33,082 bases of DNA from a virus: positions 1-33,082 of IMG/VR virus record IMGVR_UViG_3300046375_000033. One strand, given 5' to 3'. The notes beneath the pieces were generated by a model, which worked only from the letters and a program-made list of their open reading frames with translations, was not told the DNA's origin and searched no databases. Every line of letters starts with the position of its first letter. Positions within the stretch are counted from its first letter, which is position 1. The position numbers and the translations under genes are program-made. Shown here in pieces: positions 1-27,780 of this stretch.

Positions 1-657
1 GAGGCCGGCCGCGATCCGCAGCATTCGGCGAAAGGTCGCCACCGGATAATATTCGTTGTTGATCCCGTATTCGCCGACCGGCTTAACCGAGACCATTGGA
101 TCTTCGCCCAGGTAGCCACGATCGGTCGCCCAGCCAAAAAAGACCCGGACCGATTTATAAACGCTGCGTGGATCCCCGCTGATCTGATCAAAAAATTCGC
201 GCAGCGCGACCGGCGTGAGATCTGTCAATTGCACCCTATCGAATGCATTGATGAGTTTGAGCAATCGCCACCGATCACTAGTGACCGTCGATTGCTTAAA
301 TGTCCTGCCGACTTGATTTTGCCGCCATGCTTGGAATGCTTCGACCGCCTCGCGGACCGTTGCCGGCCTGATGTTTTGCAGCTTCTGGAGCTTTTCGTGG
401 GCCGCATAAGCGTTGGAAATTTTGCCGTCGTACATCTTGGCAAATTCACGCACGGCAATGCCAAAAGCGTCCTCACTCGGTTGCCGTCTCGACAAGTCGA
501 GTGCCGCACGACCCTCTATTTTGAGTTTTTGAATGAATTTTTCGGCCGCGGCCCGGCTTGCAAAATACTTCGCTTTACGCTTGCCATTGGCGAAATAGCG
601 ACCCGGCACCTCGACCCGCCAAGGGCTTGTTTTTGAAGGAAAAGGGATTGGGTTCAT
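1..657 (-). CDS. int: Tyrosine integrase, N-terminal part (cut by window start)
   Basis: Site-specific recombinase expected to insert the phage at a tRNA-Glu gene. The reading frame is open from the ATG at 657 to base 1, giving 219 residues. It begins MNPIPFPSKTSPWRVEVPG, then shows an AP2-like arm-binding segment (RYFANGKRKAKYFASRAAAE), then an all-helical SAM-like core-binding domain (VTSDRWRLLKLINAFDRVQLTDL..). It ends in YYPVATFRRMLRIAAGL, where the catalytic domain normally starts. The R-H-R-Y catalytic residues lie outside the window. The attP adjacent to its start supports the role. An 11-bp repeat ends immediately before the ATG, so integrase may bind over its own start. Family assignment is inferred from domain layout and context. 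Confidence 0.85.
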   Translation of the reverse strand, partial: MNPIPFPSKTSPWRVEVPGRYFANGKRKAKYFASRAAAEKFIQKLKIEGRAALDLSRRQPSEDAFGIAVREFAKMYDGKISNAYAAHEKLQKLQNIRPATVREAVEAFQAWRQNQVGRTFKQSTVTSDRWRLLKLINAFDRVQLTDLTPVALREFFDQISGDPRSVYKSVRVFFGWATDRGYLGEDPMVSVKPVGEYGINNEYYPVATFRRMLRIAAGL

Positions 658-668
658 CTGCGTTATTG
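658..668 (-). repeat. Arm-type site copy 1 (inverted)
   Basis: CAATAACGCAG on the minus strand, directly abutting the integrase ATG at 657. The same 11-mer occurs twice on the plus strand at 899-921, on the other side of the tRNA-derived core. Exact copies flanking an att core next to int are what integrase arm-binding sites look like. The position also suggests autoregulation of int. Confidence 0.6.
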
Positions 669-796
669 TAACGGAGATTTTTGCCAAAACAACCTCTTAT
701 TTCAACTAAATCACAAGTTTCTCTTGACGCAGGCGAGAAAAATGCCATAAGGGTAACTCCTTGATTTCTAGGAACTTACGAGGACCGAAAAAGGCG

Positions 797-840
797 CAGC
801 GCGTATGGGATTTGAACCCATGTACCGGCCTTGAGAGGGC
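797..840 (-). other. attP: attP core: 3' half of tRNA-Glu(CTC)
   Basis: Read on the minus strand, this matches a tRNA-Glu from the anticodon loop onward: loop CTCTCAA with anticodon CTC, half-stem GGCCG, four-base variable loop GTAC (typical of tRNA-Glu), T stem ATGGG/CCCAT around loop TTCAAAT, acceptor strand ACGCGCT and discriminator G at 797. No D arm or 5' acceptor strand follows at 841-930, and only three bases of the anticodon stem's 5' side match. It is therefore the identity segment that rebuilds a host tRNA on integration, not a working tRNA. CCA is not encoded. Confidence 0.8.
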
Positions 841-853
841 GATGGCATGATTT

Positions 854-884
854 CTATAAGTGTTTTGTTTTCAAGTACTTATAG
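854..884. repeat. 8-bp perfect inverted repeat beside the attP core
   Basis: CTATAAGT at 854-861 and ACTTATAG at 877-884 form a perfect inverted repeat around a 15-base AT-rich spacer. It lies between the tRNA-derived core and the two direct arm-type repeats. It may bind an excisionase or host factor, or form a small hairpin. Confidence 0.5.
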
Positions 885-898
885 ATTTGCAATTTTGC

Positions 899-921
899 CA
901 ATAACGCAGACAATAACGCAG
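899..921 (+). repeat. Arm-type sites copies 2 and 3 (direct)
   Basis: CAATAACGCAG at 899-909 is repeated exactly at 911-921, with a one-base gap and so a 12-bp period. The third exact copy, inverted, is at 658-668. This lies on the phage side of the tRNA-derived core, as expected for the P arm of a lambda-type attP. No gene is seen between 658 and 989. Confidence 0.6.
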
Positions 922-989
922 TTTTGCGGCTAAACAGGCCAAATTTGCGATTGATATCAAGCGCAGCGATACCGTAAAGAAGACACAGT

Positions 990-1964: not shown

Positions 1965-4928
1965 TTACCAGCCGGTGTCGGCAGTCATTTGATAATTAGC
2001 TACATAGTTTGAAGCATTCCGACTACTTAAACCAAATCCTTGAAACCCTGTTTCGCCAACCTGATTTACAGACGTGATCGCTACATCTGCAGCTGCAACT
2101 TGGTCATAGATATTATTAGCATTTCCAGTGATTGGACTATATCCGATAATTGTCGGATCTTTCGCCATTCTGGTAGGAAATATAACAGAAACTAATGGAT
2201 TACGTCCGCCGATTACCGTAACGGCATAGGCACCTAATTGAGATACCGATCCCGGTTTAACTGCATAATCAAATGATTTGCAAAAATAACGTTGAGATGC
2301 AAACAGATTCTCCACAAACGGGCAATCGATCGGCGTCGTGCAAAGCGCGCCTGGTTCGTGCTGGACGAAAGCAATGTCGAAAGTTGCGCCGGCCGTCGCC
2401 AGCAAATTGCTCATTCCGGTCACGCCGCGGATGTCGCCGATTTGCCAGGCAGCGTTAGCCGCAGCTGTGTAAGTTGATCCGCAGGCTAAAAAGATTTCCA
2501 GATTGTAACCGACCCCACCAGGAACAGCGCTATAGGTGCCAACCCAGACAGGCAAATTAGGCAACGGAATCAATGTCCAAGTGGCCGCCGATGGAATGGT
2601 GCAAAGCTTAACCAGACTGTGCGTCGCAGTAGGGTCTTTTAAACGCAGGGCAAAGGTTAATCCGGCAACGCTTGACCGCACTAAAAGCGACGTCGAATGC
2701 ACGTCCATCGCGAGTTCACGCCAACGCGGACCTTCGAGGTATTGAGTAATACCCCAAAAATCACCGGCGGCCAGGGATGCCTGCGCTGTTCCGACCGAAA
2801 AACGTTGATAGTTTTGGGTGATACCGAAGTTGGTTCCTGGTAGGACAATCGGCGCGGTTGGAACACTTTGCAGCGCGGTGTTGACGGTACCGGTTAATCC
2901 AGCACTTTTAAAAATCGCGTAACGATCCTGAATAAACGTGCCACTAGCCGGATTCGTCAACGCGGTCGCCACATTGCGCTGGTCCACCTCAAACGTCGGG
3001 TTGCCGATCGCGTTAAAGCTGCGCAAACGGACGCTCCAGATCACCGGCTGTAACGCCTGGCTGTTGTTGGTGCCATCAATAAAATCGGTCGTGTTACCGC
3101 TGGTCTGGTTCAACAAGCCTTTGGTCGATGCGCTGGCCAGCGGAATCTGGTCAGTCCCGGTAACGTGGCTGGCTTCATGCGGCGTTGGAGTTCGCGCGTT
3201 AGTCAATTGCGGGTCGTCGCCCGAGACAGTCTGGGCGTGCGTAGTCGCCGCAATGCCCGCCGCGGTGCCTTGCACCAGGATCAAGGAATCGCTGCCAAGC
3301 GTCGCTTTGTTGTTCGCGTTCGCGCTGATCGCTGTCGGCCCAGCCGGTCCAGTTGCGCCGGTAGAACCGGTCGGCCCTTGTGGTCCAGTCGCGCCGGTAG
3401 AACCGGTCGACCCCTGAGAACCGGTCGCCCCCATCTGTGCGACTAATGACCAATGTGTTGTATCGGTCGCCGGATCGGTGCCGGTTGTTGCTAAAATGCA
3501 AACGTAAGAGCTGCCAGTCCGGCTTACGGTGTCATACGGCACATAAGCCGTTGAACCAGACCAAGTCCCGCGCCAAGTGTAGCCTTGCCCTTGCGGACCG
3601 GTCGCGCCGGTTGCCCCAGCCGGGCCTTGACTGCCGGTCGAACCCGTCGCGCCTTGCGGACCTTGAGCACCGGTTGCGCCGGCCGGTCCAGTTGCTCCGG
3701 TTGTTCCTGGCGGGCCTTGTGGTCCCGTCGCTCCAGTGGTACCAGCCGGACCTTGTGCGCCCGTTGCGCCAGTCGGCCCCTGAGCGCCGGCAGCGCCCAT
3801 TTGCGCTACGATCTGCCAGTGAGTGGTATCTGTAGCCGGATCGTTTCCATTACTGGCCAGGATGCACACATAAGAGCTGCCGTTGCGGCTAACCGTGTCA
3901 TAGGGCACGTAAGTGGTCACATTCACCCACGCACCGTGCCAACTATAGCCTTGGCCCTGCGGTCCTTGGGCACCAGTTGCGCCAGCTGAACCCTGTGGAC
4001 CTGGAATACCTTGAGGTCCTTGCGGGCCGGTAGCGCCAGATGACCCGGTAGGTCCTTGTGGACCTGTCTGACCGGGATTGCCCTGCGGACCGGTTGGTCC
4101 GGTCGCACCAGTGTTACCAATTGGACCTTGAGCGCCGGTTGCACCGGTAGCTCCCTGCGGCCCGGCTGAGCCGGCAGCGCCCGTGTTGCCTTGAACTCCC
4201 TGTAATCCCTGCGGTCCCTGCGCGCCTTGCGGCCCGGTAGCACCCGGCGGCCCCTGCATCGGTCCAACGTTATGCCAGGCGGGCGCAGTCCAGACGTATC
4301 CGTTACCGTCACTCTGCGCAATCCACATGTCGCCGTTGGTATTGCCGGTTGTCGGCAAATCGGCCGGAGTTGCAACTGTGCCTTTAAGCGTAATGGAGGT
4401 CCCTTGCGGTCCGGTCGCACCTTGCGGACCTTGAACCCCTTGCGCACCTTGTGGACCAGCCGGCCCGGGAGGACCCTGCGGCCCGAGTGGTCCTTGGCCA
4501 CCGGTTGCGCCGGTACCACCCTGCGGTCCTTGAGGTCCTTGCGCGCCCTGCGCTCCGGTTTGACCGGGTGAACCTTGCGGCCCAGTCAATCCCTGCGGAC
4601 CGATTGCACCGGTTGGACCCGCTGGACCTAGTGGACCAATCGGTCCCGTAGCTCCGGGTGGCCCCTGCGGCCCCGTTGCGCCGGTAGCACCAGCAGGGCC
4701 AGCCGAACCATTAGCGCCTGGTGGTCCGGTCGCGCCGGGGACGCCAGGCGTACCATTAATGCCAGCAGTTCCCTGCGGCCCAGGCGGTCCTTGAATGCCC
4801 TGGTGCCCGTAATTGACATCGATCTGCGACGCTGAATAAAGCGCCACATCGATGCTTGATGACGGCAGTAGCGTGACCGCAATCGGCGTCGGCGCTAGAT
4901 CAACCGTGCAATCAATTTGAACGCTCAT
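1965..4928 (-). CDS. Collagen-like tail fibre with two carbohydrate-binding-like modules
   Basis: 987 residues; probable receptor-binding fibre. Residues 1-40 are a short N-terminal attachment segment. About 41-176, 223-327, 378-447 and 499-530 are Gly-X-Y collagen repeats that should form trimeric rods. Residues 178-222 are a small inserted domain ([17 protein letters not shown]..). Residues about 327-378 and 449-500 are two near-identical modules ([20 protein letters not shown] and [20 protein letters not shown]) with the aromatic pattern of CBM5/12-type carbohydrate binders. Residues 535-987 form a C-terminal head with the [14 protein letters not shown] motif seen in fibre tips. The start overlaps the upstream stop by 4 bases. 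Glycan binding is inferred. Confidence 0.9.
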
Positions 4929-5341
4929 GTGACAGGCACTAGGCGTTGACCGACGCTCGGGTTCAGAAAAACGGTTCCAGCAATGAGTTCGTTCGGATCA
5001 CCGCTTACGATGATGGCGCGAAGATCCCAGTAATAAAGGAACTTGGCTTCAATCGAGTTGACGGTTGCTGCGGGCACAGTCCAGGTCGCTTTCCCGTTTG
5101 TTCCGGCTCCAGCCGCAACCAGCCAATCGTGCACGTAAATAGCCGGCGGCACGGTATCGGCATCATCGAGATCTTTCTTCATCGTGAACATGAAATGCCA
5201 AGAGCTGATGTCGTGCGGTACACCAACTACCGGCGGTACGGCATTGGGATCCGGCGGCACGTCCCAGAAGGTTACGCTGAAGGGGATCGCCGCGCCCTGG
5301 AAGGCGTTCCGGATCGTGATTGAGTAGGGATCGGCCGTCAT
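4925..5341 (-). CDS. Putative tail-fibre adaptor / baseplate protein
   Basis: 138 residues, all-beta in character ([20 protein letters not shown]...). It sits between the two large fibre genes and is joined to the downstream fibre by an ATGA overlap at 4925-4928. The pattern of a short beta-rich protein next to fibres, with conserved Trp and alternating hydrophobic residues, resembles the N-terminal immunoglobulin-like part of BppU-type receptor-binding adaptors. I infer that it links fibre to tail tip. No catalytic motif is seen, and the family assignment is uncertain. Confidence 0.7.
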
Positions 5342-5346
5342 AGCTT

Positions 5347-8010
5347 TCAGGTTCCAAGATAATCTAATTGAAAGAGTGGACCCACCGGAGAGGCCGCAGC
5401 GGCTGCTTCATAGATTAGCGCGTTAGGAATGGTGCCGCTCTGGTTGGAGGGAGTTACTTCCACGTAATCGCCTGCGTTCAATTTCAAAATGCCGCTGATT
5501 AATTGATTCGTTGGAGTAAATGATGAAGCGATTATTACCACCATATTTCCCAGTCTGGGATGAGTCGACCCATTTACCGTCACGTTGACATTGAGATAAG
5601 TTGTCGATCCTCCGGCTCCGCCCCAACTCAATTGAACGGTGACCAGATAATACCCTGCGGTCACAATGGTCAGCCTGGAAGGATTACCAGCTGACCACTT
5701 GGTATCAGTATCCCAACTGACCGCCGTCCAGGGAATAACTGTGGCGTCGGCGTAAGTCCAGTTACTTGTCCGAACCGCCTGCGTATGATTAAGAGTAGCT
5801 CCACCACCGCTGCCGGCTGGTCCGGTCGGTCCGATCGAGCCCGCCGGCGACACTTGCGCACCGCTCGTTATCACTGTGCCAGAGCTGGTATTGCCGGTCG
5901 TACCGCTATTGGTTAGCACGACATGGGTCGCGTCGGTGACTACCGATACGCTGAAATATCCGGCACCGGCCACGTAAAGGTTTTGGCCTTGGACCATCCA
6001 TGCGCTCGAACCTACGGTCACCGTAACCGGCGAACCGGTTGGTGGCATCGTGAAAAGCGCCGTCGTGGCTGTAAACGCGTTTGTCCCGGCTGGACCGTTT
6101 AACCCGGACGGACTCACGCCGCCGCCGCTCGGTACGCTCGCAGCGGGTGCTGCGTTGCTGCTATACCCCAGGTTGGTAACGACCGCATGCGTAATATCGG
6201 TAACGCTAGCAACCGTGTAATAGCCGCCACCCGCGATATAAATCGCCTGATTAGGCACCATCCACGCCGTTGTGCCGACAGCGATTGAGACGGTGGCACT
6301 CACGGCTGGCTGCGTAAACCCGGCACTGAGCGTCGTGAACGCGTTCAGGCCTGCGCCTCCGGCTCCGGCTGGTCCTATCAAGCCAGCCGGTGAAAGATGC
6401 GCGCCCGAAGCGATCACCGTCCCGGCGGTAACGTTACCGGGATAGTTAAGGTTGGTCGCGCTGAACACTGTCGGGCTACTAATCGATGCGACCTGGAACG
6501 AACCGGCTCCAACAATCACAATCACCTGGCCAACGCTCAACCAAGCCGTGTTACCGATTGTAACGCCAACAACGGCCGCTACGGCCGGCATCGTGAAATT
6601 AGCGCTAGTCGTGTCATAAGCGTTCGCGCCCGGAGTGCCGGTACTCGACGGCCCCGCAATACCGCCTGGGGTGACTATGGCCCCCGAGTTGATTACCGTG
6701 CCTGGAACCACATTGGTCGCCGAGTATCCCAGATTAGTCAGAACCGCCTGAGTGGCACTGGTAACCGATGAGACTGCATAATACCCGGCTCCGGAGATAA
6801 AAACTACGTATCCTGCGCCACCTAGCCACGCGGTTGACGCCATCGTGACCGAGACCGTTGCCAACATCGCCGGCACCGTAAAGTTGGCGCTGGTTGTGCT
6901 AAACGCGTTTTGGCCGGCAGTTCCGCCACCGCCTAAAGAGTCCCAGGGCATAATCGCCGCCCCTGCCGTAATCGTGGTCCCTGCAATGGCGTTCCACGGG
7001 TCGCCTAAGTTCTGGATCGTGACATGTGTGCCGTCTGGAACCGCAGTCACCGAGTAGTAGCCGGCAATCGGAATGCGGACCCACTGGCCAACGACAAAAC
7101 CAGTCGAGCTACTGACTGTCACGTTGACCGTGCCACCGGATGCCGGGGTCGGGAAGTTGGCTGCGACGCTCGCTGCGATTGAAGCAAACTGCAGGTTGCC
7201 TGCACCGCTCAAGTTGATCGTCGTGTTATCGACCGGGATAGCAGCCGGATTAAGCTTCGAGCTGGCGTTCAGACCGGCGTATCCGTTTACGGCGTTCTTG
7301 CGCGTAATTAACTCTAAGAGTGAAGCGTCCGGATAGGTCTGAATAACGTTAGTCGCAGCAATCCCGACGTTTGTGCCACTCGGGATCACCGTCCCAGACG
7401 CGGCGTTCCCGGCCCCGCCCATGTTCTGGGCAACAAAATCCGTCGCATTAGTGATCGAGACGACCTGATATGCACCCGCACCCGCCGCAATTGCCAGATT
7501 TAATCCAGTTGAAAGCCAGCTAGTGCTGTTGATCCGGACCGTGACATTGGCGTTGACTGCCGAGGTAGTGAACGCCGCAATTGTCGTATCAAGGACGGTC
7601 TCGCTCAGCAGCGACCTCTGAACCGTAAACTCGACGTCAAGCGTGCGCGCAATTGTGCCGAAACTGGTCTGGTACCGGATCTCGCCGACACAAGTAACCG
7701 AGGTCTGAGTCCCGATCGCCGCCAACATTTGTGTCGTGTTGAAATTCGGATAACCGACGTAACAAACGCGGCCCTGCGTATCGACTACCCGGTTAAAAGT
7801 GTTTTGTTGCACCAGGGCGTTTGGGCCTGTGCTGAAGAGCCCAAAGCGCAAACCGGGCGAGGTGCCAAGATCGATGTTGCCTGTGGCGCGCGCAAAATAG
7901 ACCGCCATCGTTGGCGTATCCTGGCTCTTAACCTGGATCGGCGGCGCGGCCTGCCTTGAACCGAATCCCTGCACCGCCTGCTGCAAGTCTAAATCGATAA
8001 TTATAACCAT
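5347..8010 (-). CDS. Modular tail fibre: six beta repeats and C1q-like tip
   Basis: 887 residues. Residues 1-145 are a beta-rich N-terminal domain (DLDLQQAVQGFGSRQAAPPI..) similar in style to BppU-type baseplate proteins. Six related modules follow at about 146-216, 286-353, 369-449, 463-543, 556-636 and 644-724. The repeat unit reads roughly TVxVGxxAWxxxGQxxYxxGAGYYxVxSVxDxTHxxxTNLG, then GTxIxSGAxVSPxG. Between modules 1 and 2 is a typical fibre motif, GYAGLNASSKLNPAAIP. Short Gly-X-Y links join the later modules. Residues about 740-887 resemble a C1q/TNF-like jelly-roll trimer head (AGYYLVTVQLSW, ASSFTPTNQLISGILKLNAGDYVEV). It is probably a host-recognition fibre. No strong ribosome site precedes the ATG. 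Confidence 0.9.
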   Translation of the reverse strand: MVIIIDLDLQQAVQGFGSRQAAPPIQVKSQDTPTMAVYFARATGNIDLGTSPGLRFGLFSTGPNALVQQNTFNRVVDTQGRVCYVGYPNFNTTQMLAAIGTQTSVTCVGEIRYQTSFGTIARTLDVEFTVQRSLLSETVLDTTIAAFTTSAVNANVTVRINSTSWLSTGLNLAIAAGAGAYQVVSITNATDFVAQNMGGAGNAASGTVIPSGTNVGIAATNVIQTYPDASLLELITRKNAVNGYAGLNASSKLNPAAIPVDNTTINLSGAGNLQFASIAASVAANFPTPASGGTVNVTVSSSTGFVVGQWVRIPIAGYYSVTAVPDGTHVTIQNLGDPWNAIAGTTITAGAAIMPWDSLGGGGTAGQNAFSTTSANFTVPAMLATVSVTMASTAWLGGAGYVVFISGAGYYAVSSVTSATQAVLTNLGYSATNVVPGTVINSGAIVTPGGIAGPSSTGTPGANAYDTTSANFTMPAVAAVVGVTIGNTAWLSVGQVIVIVGAGSFQVASISSPTVFSATNLNYPGNVTAGTVIASGAHLSPAGLIGPAGAGGAGLNAFTTLSAGFTQPAVSATVSIAVGTTAWMVPNQAIYIAGGGYYTVASVTDITHAVVTNLGYSSNAAPAASVPSGGGVSPSGLNGPAGTNAFTATTALFTMPPTGSPVTVTVGSSAWMVQGQNLYVAGAGYFSVSVVTDATHVVLTNSGTTGNTSSGTVITSGAQVSPAGSIGPTGPAGSGGGATLNHTQAVRTSNWTYADATVIPWTAVSWDTDTKWSAGNPSRLTIVTAGYYLVTVQLSWGGAGGSTTYLNVNVTVNGSTHPRLGNMVVIIASSFTPTNQLISGILKLNAGDYVEVTPSNQSGTIPNALIYEAAAAASPVGPLFQLDYLGT

Positions 8011-19137: not shown

Positions 19138-19425
19138 TTAAATAATGCTTTCAACTCTTCCAACTAGTGTTGAATCTGCGGCTAGTACTTCAGGTAAAGA
19201 TTCAAATAGCTTTGGCTGTTCTTTCCTTAATCGATCCCAACGATCTGCGAAATTTAAGGATTGATCCTTGCATTGCATTTTGTCGATCTCATCCATAATT
19301 ATTTGCCGCTGATTGTGCATGGTTTCCCGCTGCTTGAATAAGGCCGGATCAAACTTACGTATCAGTTTCATCGATCGATAGAGATCCATGAAATCCACCA
19401 TTTTAGTTACCTCTGCCTCGTTCAT
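19138..19425 (-). CDS. Helical protein downstream of portal, unknown
   Basis: 95 residues, almost entirely helical and charged (MNEAEVTKMVDFMDLYRSMK), with a heptad-like middle (FKQRETMHNQRQIIMDEIDK). It overlaps the portal stop by ATGA (19422-19425), so it is translated with the portal. A chaperone or inner-capsid role is possible, but no family is recognised. Confidence 0.68.
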   Translation of the reverse strand: MNEAEVTKMVDFMDLYRSMKLIRKFDPALFKQRETMHNQRQIIMDEIDKMQCKDQSLNFADRWDRLRKEQPKLFESLPEVLAADSTLVGRVESII

Positions 19426-21407
19426 CGCTTAAAGATTCCTTTGAGCCACCGCTGAATCTGTGGCCAAGTCTTCAAGACCGGCATCACGCTCGAGCGGCAG
19501 TTGTATTTGATCGGCGGGAAATCAGGGAATTCCAGATCGTGCCCGATCGGTTTCAAATCTGGGTAAGTCCACCGTTTTCCGTTCAGCGCCACGCACTCGG
19601 GCGTAGTCCGGTCGTCCATCACCGATTTCCATTTGACGCCCTTGATCGTCGCGGCGTTCTCTCGGAAATATTGGGCGGTGTCATGCGACACGGCCGCCTC
19701 AGCCGGTGAACGATCCAATTGCTTTGGCTCAAGCACAGTCGTCGTCCCAGGTTCGCGCCGCGCCTCGACCGTTTCCAAAAACCGTAACACTTCGCCCGGT
19801 TCCGGTTCCTCGCCGTAATCGAGTGCAAAACTTACCTTGCGAGCCGGAACAGCGATTCCATCCTGGCCTTCGCCAGCATCATCAAAATCTGGGTCACAAC
19901 AGTCACGGTCACCAAGCCCAGCAGCGCCCACCCGCTCCACGATATTAGGTTTAGCCCCTGGTTCCTTGCTGCCGTTAGGCCTGCCCTGAGCTTTGTCGAA
20001 GGGCGCTCCAGCCGGCTCTGGTCGGGTTCCGAACGGTTGTGGATGTGGGGTTCCAAACGGGATAGCAGGCGGTTGCGGCGCCGCAGGTGGCTCGTAAACA
20101 TCGTCGTCGTCCTCCGGTGGCGTAAACTCGATCCGGGCATAGAGCTCTTTGTTCAGGACCGGGATCTTCATCTGGTTAAACAGGATGTTGTAAGCCTGTG
20201 CCAGATTAAACAAATCAATCGGCGAATTGATTACCGGCGCTAAGGTCGGGAATTCGGTCGCCTCGCCGAAATTGTAAATAACAATGCCCGGAATGATCTG
20301 GGTCGTGATGATCTTAGCCGCGTACTTAGCCGCCGCTTCCATCACTTCGTCCATTACCTTGCGGTGGACTGTCCCGAGCGCGCGGTTGCCACCGCTCTCC
20401 CGCACTTCGGTCGTCAACGTCTGGCCCAGCAACATGATATCGCAGACCTTATCGGCCTCATCGATCAGCCGTTCCTGCGGCAGGTGACCACTCGCGCTCC
20501 CGGCTGCGGCATCGATATGGATCTCGGTGCCTTTTGGATAAACGCCCCAGGTCGCCGCGGCGCTCTGGCGCATCATCTGCACCAGTTTCTGGTACACCAC
20601 ATCGTCACCCGGTTGGTAGTACGCTATGCGATTCGGGATCCCAAAAAGCTGCGCGTACGTCATGAACCACTCGAGCCCGAACCGGCTCGCGATCCACCAA
20701 GCGCTCAGCGTGCGCATCGGGGCCGTAAATACCGGATGGTTAGCGTGACTTTGTTTAATGCAGACCAGGAACTTGTATGGTGGGAAATCGACCAACTGGG
20801 TACCGCCTAGCATCCCGCTTGGGTTAAGCATTAGCCGGTCGACGTCATCCAAAACATACGGGTACCGGTAATAGCGCGCCGGCAACCACCGGGTACACTC
20901 GGGCATAATCCCACCGTCACGCTGTTCCCAATAAACCTCCATCACGGTAAACCCGGCCACGATCGAGTCGACGATATCTTCCAGAGTCTCTTTAAAATCA
21001 TGTTGCTGGAAAGCGACATCGCCGTGCATACCGAAAAGCGCCGTCTTAACGAAATCAGCTTTCTCGAGCGCGCTCGGGGTCGGTTCATCGTCGGCCTCAG
21101 CGTACGGCGTAACCGCAAATTCCATGCTCGAGACCGACTGCTTGAGTTTGCCCAGATTGGTTTGGAGCCGCGGCCAGGTATCAACCATCAGGCTCCAGAG
21201 TTGGTCTTGCCAATAAAGATCGCCGACAATCGCCGAATAAAGAATCCCCTCAACGTCGTTCGGAAACAGGCGCCGTTTGAGCTCGCGCAGGAGCCGATCC
21301 TGAACCTCGACGTTGATCATCGGCTCGGTGACAGGTGTCGTAGCCGTGTCGGGCATCGGCGGCGTGCCAGGCACGTTCAGGTTCAGGACGTCTGGGTTCT
21401 CAGCCAT
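19422..21407 (-). CDS. Portal protein (DUF935, Mu gp29-like) fused to Mu F-like domain
   Basis: 661 residues. Residues about 25-440 match the Mu gp29/DUF935 portal family (DVEGILYSAIVGDLYWQDQL, FMTYAQLFGIPNRIAYYQPG). About 440-560 is a Pro/Gly-rich linker. The last about 70 residues match the Mu gpF minor-head domain: DDRTTPEC at 598-605 and the closing NCRS at 636-639. In Mu these are two proteins, but here they are one chain. The portal is the DNA gate at one vertex, and the F-like part usually aids head assembly or is injected. Start 21407 overlaps the upstream small gene by 8 bases. Confidence 0.88.
   Translation of the reverse strand: MAENPDVLNLNVPGTPPMPDTATTPVTEPMINVEVQDRLLRELKRRLFPNDVEGILYSAIVGDLYWQDQLWSLMVDTWPRLQTNLGKLKQSVSSMEFAVTPYAEADDEPTPSALEKADFVKTALFGMHGDVAFQQHDFKETLEDIVDSIVAGFTVMEVYWEQRDGGIMPECTRWLPARYYRYPYVLDDVDRLMLNPSGMLGGTQLVDFPPYKFLVCIKQSHANHPVFTAPMRTLSAWWIASRFGLEWFMTYAQLFGIPNRIAYYQPGDDVVYQKLVQMMRQSAAATWGVYPKGTEIHIDAAAGSASGHLPQERLIDEADKVCDIMLLGQTLTTEVRESGGNRALGTVHRKVMDEVMEAAAKYAAKIITTQIIPGIVIYNFGEATEFPTLAPVINSPIDLFNLAQAYNILFNQMKIPVLNKELYARIEFTPPEDDDDVYEPPAAPQPPAIPFGTPHPQPFGTRPEPAGAPFDKAQGRPNGSKEPGAKPNIVERVGAAGLGDRDCCDPDFDDAGEGQDGIAVPARKVSFALDYGEEPEPGEVLRFLETVEARREPGTTTVLEPKQLDRSPAEAAVSHDTAQYFRENAATIKGVKWKSVMDDRTTPECVALNGKRWTYPDLKPIGHDLEFPDFPPIKYNCRSSVMPVLKTWPQIQRWLKGIFKR
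19980..20003. repeat. Dispersed TGAGCTTTGTCGAA-type repeat inside the portal linker
   Basis: The plus strand reads CCCTGAGCTTTGTCGAAGGG, an imperfect palindrome of a kind scattered in many bacterial genomes (CCCTGAGCNTGTCGAAGGG class). In the portal frame it encodes residues about 469-476, FDKAQGRP, a peptide typical of in-frame insertions of that element. It lies exactly in the Pro/Gly linker between portal and F-like domains. Confidence 0.6.
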
Positions 21408-23002: not shown

Positions 23003-23146
23003 TTATTTTTCGGAACTAGCAAAACTTCCTGTTACCGGCGGGGCGCTTTCTTTGATCTCTTCCCGCACCGCGATCTGGCGCTGCTCAATGCGCTTCAGAT
23101 ATGCGAGCACTTCATCGAGCTTAGCTAAAATTTCTTGGTCGCTCAT
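23003..23146 (-). CDS. Short coiled-coil protein (47 residues)
   Basis: Reads MSDQEILAKLDEVLAYLKRI, continuing as a charged heptad helix to about residue 32, then a Ser/Pro tail. It starts at ATG 23146, in ATGA overlap with the methyltransferase stop, and ends 6 bases before the next gene. Its packing between two coupled genes supports it. Unknown function. Confidence 0.68.
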   Translation of the reverse strand: MSDQEILAKLDEVLAYLKRIEQRQIAVREEIKESAPPVTGSFASSEK

Positions 23147-24222
23147 AAAAACCCAGGGGTAACAAAGGTTCGGTCTTCGGCCAGCTCGATATAGGCTGGG
23201 TTAAGCTCGATCAAGAGTGCCCGGCGCCCAAGCTCGAGCGCCACCTGGCCAACGGTGCCGCTGCCGGCAAACGGATCGAGCACGGTATCGCCGACCTTCG
23301 TGCTGGCCAAGATACAAAGCTTTGGGATTTCCTCTGGAAAGGTGGCAAAATGGGCCTCGGCGTAGGGCTGGGTGGCGATCGTCCAAACGGTGCGCTTATT
23401 GCGGCCGGTTCCATTCCTGCCGTTTGCCGTTCTAATTTTGGAGTGAGGCGATAAAAACCCATTCGAACTATCTATCGCCTCGACTACGTTCCGGGCGTGA
23501 TCGGTTCCTAAATCGGGCTCCCTAATCGCCTCCGCATCGTAAAAATAGCGCTCCTGCTTCGCTAGCAGATAAATCATCTCGTGCGCTTTAGTCGGCCGAT
23601 CGGTCACAGATTCCGGCATCGGGTTGGGCTTGTGCCACACGATCTCGCTACGCAGATACCAGCCAGCGGCCTGCAGCGCCATGGCCAGGCGGGCCGGCAT
23701 CATGCATAGGTCTTTGGGCTTGAGGCCTACATTTCTGCGTGTGCTCTCTCCGAATGAACCAGCTATTTCGTGGTCGCCGAACTTGGCGCTTGTTCCATTT
23801 CCAGAATCACGCCGCCCCGCAGGATTGCTAGTCGCGTAACTATCGCCAAGATTAATCCAGCAAGTTGCATCCGGTTTCAGCACGCGCCAGACCGCGCGGA
23901 ACACGGCAACCATCTTGGCGATGTACTCTTCGGACGTGGCTTCCAAGCCGAACTGCAAATCGATCCGGCGAGCACCGCATTTGCCGCAAACAAGTTTTTC
24001 AAACTTCCCGTTATAAGTGGATTCCTTAGAGCCTTGTAAGCCAGAAGGATAACCATTGAACCGCTTATGATCGCACCCCGCCTCCCCGCCTTCCCATTGC
24101 GCCGTGCCGTAGTCGCGCAACCCCCAGTACGGCGGCGAAGTAATACACGTCTGCACGCTCTGGGCCGGCAGCCTCGGCAGGATGTCCCGGCAATCGCCGG
24201 TTAGTATTTGCAGCCGGTTCAT
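23143..24222 (-). CDS. DNA methyltransferase, beta class (N4-C or N6-A)
   Basis: 359 residues. The catalytic motif TSPPY is at 28-32 (TSPPYWGLRDYG), and the AdoMet-binding motif I comes later (VLDPFAGSGTVG, 314-325), the beta-class order. WHKPNPMPESVTDRP and YFYDAEAIREP are typical of amino-methyltransferases. An insertion carries C50-x-H52 and C79-x-x-C82, a likely zinc knuckle. It probably protects phage DNA from host restriction or marks it for packaging; the target sequence cannot be told from sequence. It is coupled to TerL by ATGA at 24219-24222. Confidence 0.9.
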   Translation of the reverse strand: MNRLQILTGDCRDILPRLPAQSVQTCITSPPYWGLRDYGTAQWEGGEAGCDHKRFNGYPSGLQGSKESTYNGKFEKLVCGKCGARRIDLQFGLEATSEEYIAKMVAVFRAVWRVLKPDATCWINLGDSYATSNPAGRRDSGNGTSAKFGDHEIAGSFGESTRRNVGLKPKDLCMMPARLAMALQAAGWYLRSEIVWHKPNPMPESVTDRPTKAHEMIYLLAKQERYFYDAEAIREPDLGTDHARNVVEAIDSSNGFLSPHSKIRTANGRNGTGRNKRTVWTIATQPYAEAHFATFPEEIPKLCILASTKVGDTVLDPFAGSGTVGQVALELGRRALLIELNPAYIELAEDRTFVTPGFL

Positions 24223-26162: not shown

Positions 26163-26393
26163 ATGGTGCGGCCGCTAAAAATTGATTTGTTACGTACCGC
26201 AGCAGCGCGCGGCGATTGGGTGCAAGCGTTATCGATCGCCGCAAAATTCCATAACCTTGGAACGCATAAAGCAGTGATTACCCGAGCGCATAACGCTATT
26301 CAATCCCCTGGTTTTTATCTGCAAATTGGCCAAGATCCAACGACAGTCATTAAGGCTGGTATAGCTGCGCTCAAGGAGCGGTACCGTTTATAA
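26163..26393 (+). CDS. Small conserved phage protein, unknown
   Basis: 76 residues from ATG 26163, chosen over an upstream in-frame ATG because GAAGGGG precedes it and the upstream codons carry the operator. The sequence (MVRPLKIDLLRTAAARGDWV, IAAKFHNLGTHKAVITRAHN, ALKERYRL) has the helical pattern of a small protein often found in phages of Alphaproteobacteria. It reads toward the ParB-methyltransferase gene, and their ends overlap by 23 bases, so the two transcripts meet. Function unknown; diverging from TerS suggests a separate control. Confidence 0.72.
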   Translation: MVRPLKIDLLRTAAARGDWVQALSIAAKFHNLGTHKAVITRAHNAIQSPGFYLQIGQDPTTVIKAGIAALKERYRL

Positions 26394-27780
26394 AATCCCC
26401 CAGCTGATCTGTTTCGCCATACTCGCAAGACCCTAGTTTAGCGCACGCTTTCTTAGCGTTGCCTTTAAGAAATATCAGCACGTGTTGGTGTGTTTTGCCC
26501 AGCTTGCGCGCGCTGACAAAATGCTGACCAGCGCGGACCGCTAGCGTGCCGACCATGGTTACCAAAATCGCCTCATTATAAAAGCGCAAGCCAGCAGCTT
26601 CGAACGCCAGCACGGTTTCAGGCACGAGTCCACGATAAAAGCCGCTTTTCTCATCCCGCACTTCTCCTACGACCCAACAGACAAAGCTGTCCTGCTCGAG
26701 CCCCACAGTTGCCGCTTTGATAATCTCTCGGTGCGCTCGACAGAACTCTGGCCAGGGCATGTTTGATAGATCCCGTGGATGATCTGAGTATTGCTCGAGG
26801 TCGCCATAGGGCGGGCAACTGAAAAGCAGCTGTGCTTGCCTTGGCGCACCTGAAACCGCATCGAGCGCATCGGCAACCGCCCAGTTGGGCTTTGGTGCAT
26901 CTTTGGGCAAATGCTGGCTAATCTCGGCCCATTGCTCGCGATTAGCGCCGATCTGGCGCTCTGATATGTCCACCCCGTAATAACTGCGACTCAACGCTGC
27001 CGCCACGACGCCGCGCACGCTGCCACCCGCGAACGGATCCAACACCATCATGCCTGGCGCGCTAAACCAGCGATAGACCAGTTCACACAAAACCGGGTCA
27101 AAGATGCTTGTGCCGGTCAACTCCTTGTGATTGTACTTCTCGCGCGCCTTTTCTTTATCCGCCCATGGATTTGGCCCAAGGACCGGCTTTTTGATCAGCG
27201 CTTTGCCTGGGTCAAACGTAGCGATCCGCCCTAGCTCGCTTTTTATCCCTAGTGCAATCCAAGCAGCTTTGCGCTCCTGCCACCAACCGCTACGGGCATT
27301 GATCACGCTGAAAGGCGGCACACCAAAGCGTTCGGCCAATGTACGTTTAGCCTGTTCACGATTTTCCTGTTCGCCGCTATCCGCGCCCCCCAAGATCTGG
27401 GCAAGTTCATCATGATCAAAGCCGACTAGTGAAAGATCGAAGTCCAGATCGGCCAGCTCGAGCTTTAACGCTTCAAAGTCCCAGTCGCTATCCAAGGTGA
27501 GCCGGTTATCGGCAAGGCGATAAGCGCGTTTCTGGGCGCTCGAGAGGCCCGGCACGCGTAGACATGGCACCTGCGGCATCAAAAGCGCCCGGGCGGCCAG
27601 CAGGCGGCCGTGGCCGGCCAATACGGTAGCGTCCTCGTCGACTAGAATGGGCACGGTCCAGCCGAACTCTTTTATCGAGGCGACGATCTTGGCAATGTTG
27701 GTCTCGGAATGGATCCGGGCGTTACGCGGATACGGGGTAACCGAATCGATGGGGAGCAGCTCGACGGTTTGTTTTTTCAT
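26371..27780 (-). CDS. ParB-like domain fused to DNA methyltransferase
   Basis: 469 residues. Residues 1-95 are a ParB/Srx-type nuclease-like fold (LLPIDSVTPYPRNARIHSET, AGHGR at 55-59, RAYRLADNR near 86-93). About 155-240 is a linker domain. The methyltransferase has motif I VLDPFAGG at 246-253 and the catalytic motif SCPPYGDLE at 321-329. Such fusions are common in tailed phages and are thought to modify DNA; a real ParB helix-turn-helix is not seen. This is the second methyltransferase in the window, with a CPPY rather than SPPY motif. A parS-like palindrome begins 3 bases upstream of the ATG. Confidence 0.9.
   Translation of the reverse strand: MKKQTVELLPIDSVTPYPRNARIHSETNIAKIVASIKEFGWTVPILVDEDATVLAGHGRLLAARALLMPQVPCLRVPGLSSAQKRAYRLADNRLTLDSDWDFEALKLELADLDFDLSLVGFDHDELAQILGGADSGEQENREQAKRTLAERFGVPPFSVINARSGWWQERKAAWIALGIKSELGRIATFDPGKALIKKPVLGPNPWADKEKAREKYNHKELTGTSIFDPVLCELVYRWFSAPGMMVLDPFAGGSVRGVVAAALSRSYYGVDISERQIGANREQWAEISQHLPKDAPKPNWAVADALDAVSGAPRQAQLLFSCPPYGDLEQYSDHPRDLSNMPWPEFCRAHREIIKAATVGLEQDSFVCWVVGEVRDEKSGFYRGLVPETVLAFEAAGLRFYNEAILVTMVGTLAVRAGQHFVSARKLGKTHQHVLIFLKGNAKKACAKLGSCEYGETDQLGDFINGTAP

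Follow-up and report, generated by a model that had tools for sequence, protein, structure and literature searches.

The window analysed here, the entire 33,082-nucleotide stretch of the virus record IMGVR_UViG_3300046375_000033, opens with an integrase gene (int) on the minus strand at 1-657 (phrog_1, E=2.5e-10), which encodes residues 1-219, comprising the N-terminal arm-binding and core-binding domains. From its start at 657 the gene extends past base 1, and its catalytic part continues in a second contig, IMGVR_UViG_3300046375_000050 (G003, integrase entry L013), where int is completed at 5205-5902, the two protein parts overlapping by 42 aa. Also present in G003 are an excisionase-like ORF (phrog_66, E=2.4e-07) and genes for a Sak4-like annealing protein together with an exonuclease. 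At its far end from int, the putative attachment site is bordered by a small plus-strand phage ORF of 89 aa (990-1259); this ORF had no family match and lies inside a block of 90% identity with the related phage G001, where the DNA is conserved. Small genes follow, then a collagen-repeat tail fibre (1965-4928, minus strand; PF01391, phrog_5073), at which the clearly structural genes of this flank begin, and then the head and packaging genes. The phrog_1 integrase on one side and the tail-fibre and head genes on the other thus bear out the gene order of the original prediction, which had been made from the window alone.

Further along the window, 19422-21407 encodes a Mu-type portal in fusion with a Mu-F-like head morphogenesis domain, although the integrase of this phage is site-specific; the genes that were scanned yielded no Mu-type transposase. 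A DNA methyltransferase with a fused ParB-like domain is encoded at 26371-27780, and a second methyltransferase at 23143-24222.

Between int and the small ORF lies the 3' half of a tRNA-Glu(CTC) gene (797-837, minus strand), CTCTCAAGGCCGGTACATGGGTTCAAATCCCATACGCGCTG, which begins with the anticodon loop and ends with the discriminator base. Read on the minus strand from 837 to 797, it consists of a 7-nt anticodon loop, CTCTCAA (837-831, anticodon CTC at 835-833), the 3' anticodon stem GGCCG (830-826), a variable loop GTAC of four nucleotides as in tRNA-Glu, a canonical T arm, ATGGG-TTCAAAT-CCCAT (821-805), the acceptor 3' strand ACGCGCT (804-798) and the discriminator G (797). CCA is not encoded in the window; TGCCA follows the 3' half in two related phages, G002 and L018. 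A generic tRNA 3'-half pattern matched once in the window and in none of 100 shuffles. Neither ARAGORN nor the Rfam tRNA model found a complete tRNA gene in the window, and a tRNA-Glu D-arm pattern was absent from it. The sequence 5' of the anticodon loop is phage DNA, TCGCC, that pairs only partly with GGCCG. These observations agree with the earlier claim of a tRNA-Glu(CTC) 3' half that lacks its 5' half. Rfam alone labelled the T arm as the end of a tmRNA, below threshold (13.6 bits); we dropped this label because the anticodon stem-loop and the 4-nt variable loop match tRNA-Glu.

The anticodon loop sits at the centre of a putative core (crossover) site, TCGCC-CTCTCAA-GGCCG (826-842, minus strand), an imperfect inverted repeat around a 7-bp overlap (831-837) that coincides with the loop; its 13-mer is unique in the window. 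Three copies of CTGCGTTATTG flank this core as putative arm-type integrase sites. Two of them, on the P arm, lie on the minus strand at 899-909 and 911-921, 12 bp apart, and the third, on the P' arm, lies inverted on the plus strand at 658-668, just before the int start codon. At least three matches to the repeat occurred in only 1 of 100 shuffles. Adjoining the core at 853-885 is an inverted repeat, TCTATAAGT/ACTTATAGA, without strand assignment, which is conserved in G001 and L018 and not in G002, and which is perhaps the site of an accessory protein. Judged by sequence, the window thus holds the inverted core repeats around a 7-bp overlap and the repeated arm sites of an attP; it also holds a 3' tDNA fragment that begins in the anticodon loop, has no 5' half and has int adjoining, as in tRNA attP sites of the anticodon subsite. 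This layout is the anatomy of an attP whose putative crossover falls in the anticodon loop.

In three further contigs of this metagenome, G001, G002 and L018, whose integrases are 53-92% identical, int and phage genes likewise enclose this core and tRNA 3' half. Across these four phages, which we compared for the attP block, TCGCCCTCTCAAGGCCG is invariant and the flanks diverge; the common block comprises TCGCC-CTCTCAA-GGCCG, the T arm and the acceptor strand. The fragment first placed at 797-840 is therefore real, but its extent is nearer 797-842, since TCGCC at 838-842 is kept in all four phages. Relative to int, the core and arm positions are the same in G001 and closely similar in G002, and the position of the P' site (658-668) is conserved in both. 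In L018 the T stem carries a paired change, from CATGGG..CCCATA to CACGGG..CCCGTA, such as would be expected were the segment required to fold and work as part of a tRNA after integration.

In five more distant relatives (L019, L020, L024, L030 and L032), the core GCCCTTTCAGGGC was found upstream of int and without the tRNA T arm, so the tRNA half is not universal in this integrase clade; the arm repeats of L019 and L020 are of the form CTGCGATA. In L035, whose integrase is 33% identical, a different tRNA 3' half with a long variable arm, perhaps of a tRNA-Leu, lies directly upstream of the related int (4250-4310). A looser tRNA-Glu pattern in viral contigs returned the known relatives and one large contig that is unrelated and has 29 tRNA/tmRNA genes, and plasmids gave no integrase match. 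Compared with L004 of G002 (5001-5645), int 1-657 is ~87% identical over its first ~300 nt, which encode the arm-binding domain, and then ~50-70%, as though a mosaic integrase had arisen by exchange of the N-terminal domain.

In tyrosine recombinases the catalytic residues are R-K-H-R-H/W-Y. In the integrase of the window, R248, K284, R347 and Y381 are present, and N344 and N372 replace the two His. Both His positions are Asn or Asp in ten members of the clade (window/L013 of G003, L003, L004, L018, L019, L020, L024, L029, L030 and L032), with the pattern R248-K284-N344-R347-N348-N/D372-Y381, in which residue 372 is Asp in some. The outliers L035 and the Akkermansia phage Chantilly keep His, in RHS and MGH/LGH motifs. 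The assignment as a tyrosine recombinase rests on PHROG and the alignment; it is weak by Pfam, the protein being too divergent for PF00589. The AlphaFold model of the integrase is confident in the N-terminal domains and has a pLDDT <50 in the catalytic domain, and we left it unused for this reason. We would give even odds to the proposal that the clade lost both catalytic His (HxxR to NxxR; GH to GN or GD) yet stays active, as the conserved sequence and geometry of the attP sites imply. We found nothing to the point in the literature on tyrosine recombinases without the catalytic His, and the His-less clade is the single point that a specialist might follow.

We then asked what lies beyond the two ends of the window. 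Its first 127 bases are the last 127 of G003. A contig of another metagenome, L014 (3300046410_000005), is 100% identical to the last 4,497 bases of the window and to the first 3,549 of G003 and bridges the two over 1,874 bases. The window, L014 and G003 close with exact overlaps into a circle of 40,731 bp that is collinear with G001; since the 1,874 bp of the bridge stem from a different metagenome, near-identical strains are combined in this circle. Beyond base 1 of the window come the rest of int, the excisionase-like and recombination genes and then the right end of the window, so that the ends join without host DNA. No tRNA genes were found in G003, L014 or L015. An exact terminal repeat is the usual sign of a circular contig, and in G001 (39,288 bp), where int, attP and structural genes follow one another as in the window, the first 127 bases recur exactly at the end. 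The figure of 127 is also the length of the exact overlaps of the window with G003 and with L015, and its recurrence in three places suggests that it is probably the k-mer length of the assembler. L015 (IMGVR_UViG_3300046375_000046) is a strain variant whose last 127 bases match the right end of the window and which is 83-90% identical to G003, a divergence that shows strain-level mosaicism in the sample.

Only phage DNA therefore lies on either side of the fragment, which marks the joined form as attP. We looked for a tRNA 5' half or host genes adjoining the fragment and found neither, and the 40,731-bp closure and the circular relative support the original reading of the joined form as the attP of a circular phage. 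We put the probability at about 93% that ~655-925 is the attP of a temperate tailed phage assembled from free phage, whether excised circle, concatemer or circularly permuted virion DNA. A circle that closes and has no fixed ends is compatible with circularly permuted virion DNA, with intracellular circles or with concatemers. The contigs assemble unbroken through the core in four cases and no contig with a host junction was found, and on these grounds we favour free phage DNA as the main form in the sample.

A tandem prophage, the alternative named at the outset, would consist of at least two head-to-tail integrated copies whose internal junction gives the same joined sequence. It would also be expected to assemble as a circle, nothing in the sequence forbids it, and tandem islands are on record in Islander (PMC4383910); yet all the spanning contigs (window, G001, G002 and L018) would have to be tandem, none shows a host junction, and free phage DNA is simpler, which makes this reading formally possible and improbable. 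Terminally redundant linear virion DNA is likewise formally possible, as it too gives the same joined sequence. A single integrated prophage, with the fragment at its left end as attR or attL and more phage-like DNA beyond, might be proposed because the window stops inside int and its left flank cannot be read from the window alone; the closed circle without host DNA refutes it unless the assembly is chimeric, and we regard it as extremely improbable. We give hardly any credence to a chance likeness to tRNA with the true attP core elsewhere: the sub-threshold Rfam call does cover the T arm only, but the shuffles gave no match, the tRNA form is conserved in four divergent phages, and arm-type repeats flank the fragment.

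On the preferred reading of a free-phage attP, the integrase would bind the arm sites at 899-909, 911-921 and 658-668 and the core at 826-842. By analogy with known systems, strands would be exchanged at the borders of the 7-bp overlap (831-837), corresponding to the anticodon loop of a host tRNA-Glu(CTC) gene. The phage 3' half (797-837), oriented with its 3' end towards int, would take the place of the host 3' half, the host 5' half being kept. A whole tRNA would thereby be restored at attL, next to int, and attR would be marked by the host 3' half that was displaced; the nearby excisionase-like gene may reverse the integration. From the phage 3' stem GGCCG, the host 5' anticodon stem is predicted to be CGGCC.

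It is common for an attP to be centred on the anticodon and to carry a 3' tDNA fragment (PMC4383910), and a case in which the overlap is the anticodon loop is known (PMC8371274). The anticodon-loop (subsite A) tDNA sites of tyrosine integrases in Islander resemble the window in having a 3' tDNA fragment from the anticodon loop, with int beside the 3' end of a fragment that would restore the split tRNA; the window differs in its fragment without CCA, whereas G002 and L018 encode CCA (PMC4383910). Judged by sequence, the attP of lambda likewise consists of imperfectly inverted core sites that enclose a 7-bp overlap, with repeated arm sites to the left and right of them; in contrast to lambda, the core of the window lies inside a tRNA fragment, the arm sequence is another, and the integrase is too divergent for PF00589.

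The integration target is likely a host tRNA-Glu(CTC) gene, as suggested by the fragment. When host genomes were searched with the exact core, as had been suggested, none of 84,980 species genomes gave a match, so that attB, attL and attR were not seen. No integrase relatives were confirmed in the species genomes with query patterns limited to the N-terminal domain. In the collection, a recognisable relative of the integrase (24% identity) occurs in a single phage record, Chantilly (ON453895), which is also the best portal match (30%); a host in the Verrucomicrobiota is therefore a reasonable guess on weak evidence. Chantilly is far from the phage of the window in sequence, and its integrase keeps His in RHS and MGH.

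A tRNA-half attP beside int that keeps the split tRNA gene whole is a well-understood, textbook mechanism. For the soil bacteriophage described here, our analysis indicates that the record represents a free temperate phage with a full length of 40,731 bp, not a prophage cut-out, and the likely target that it names, tRNA-Glu(CTC), may be used for finding lysogens and the host.
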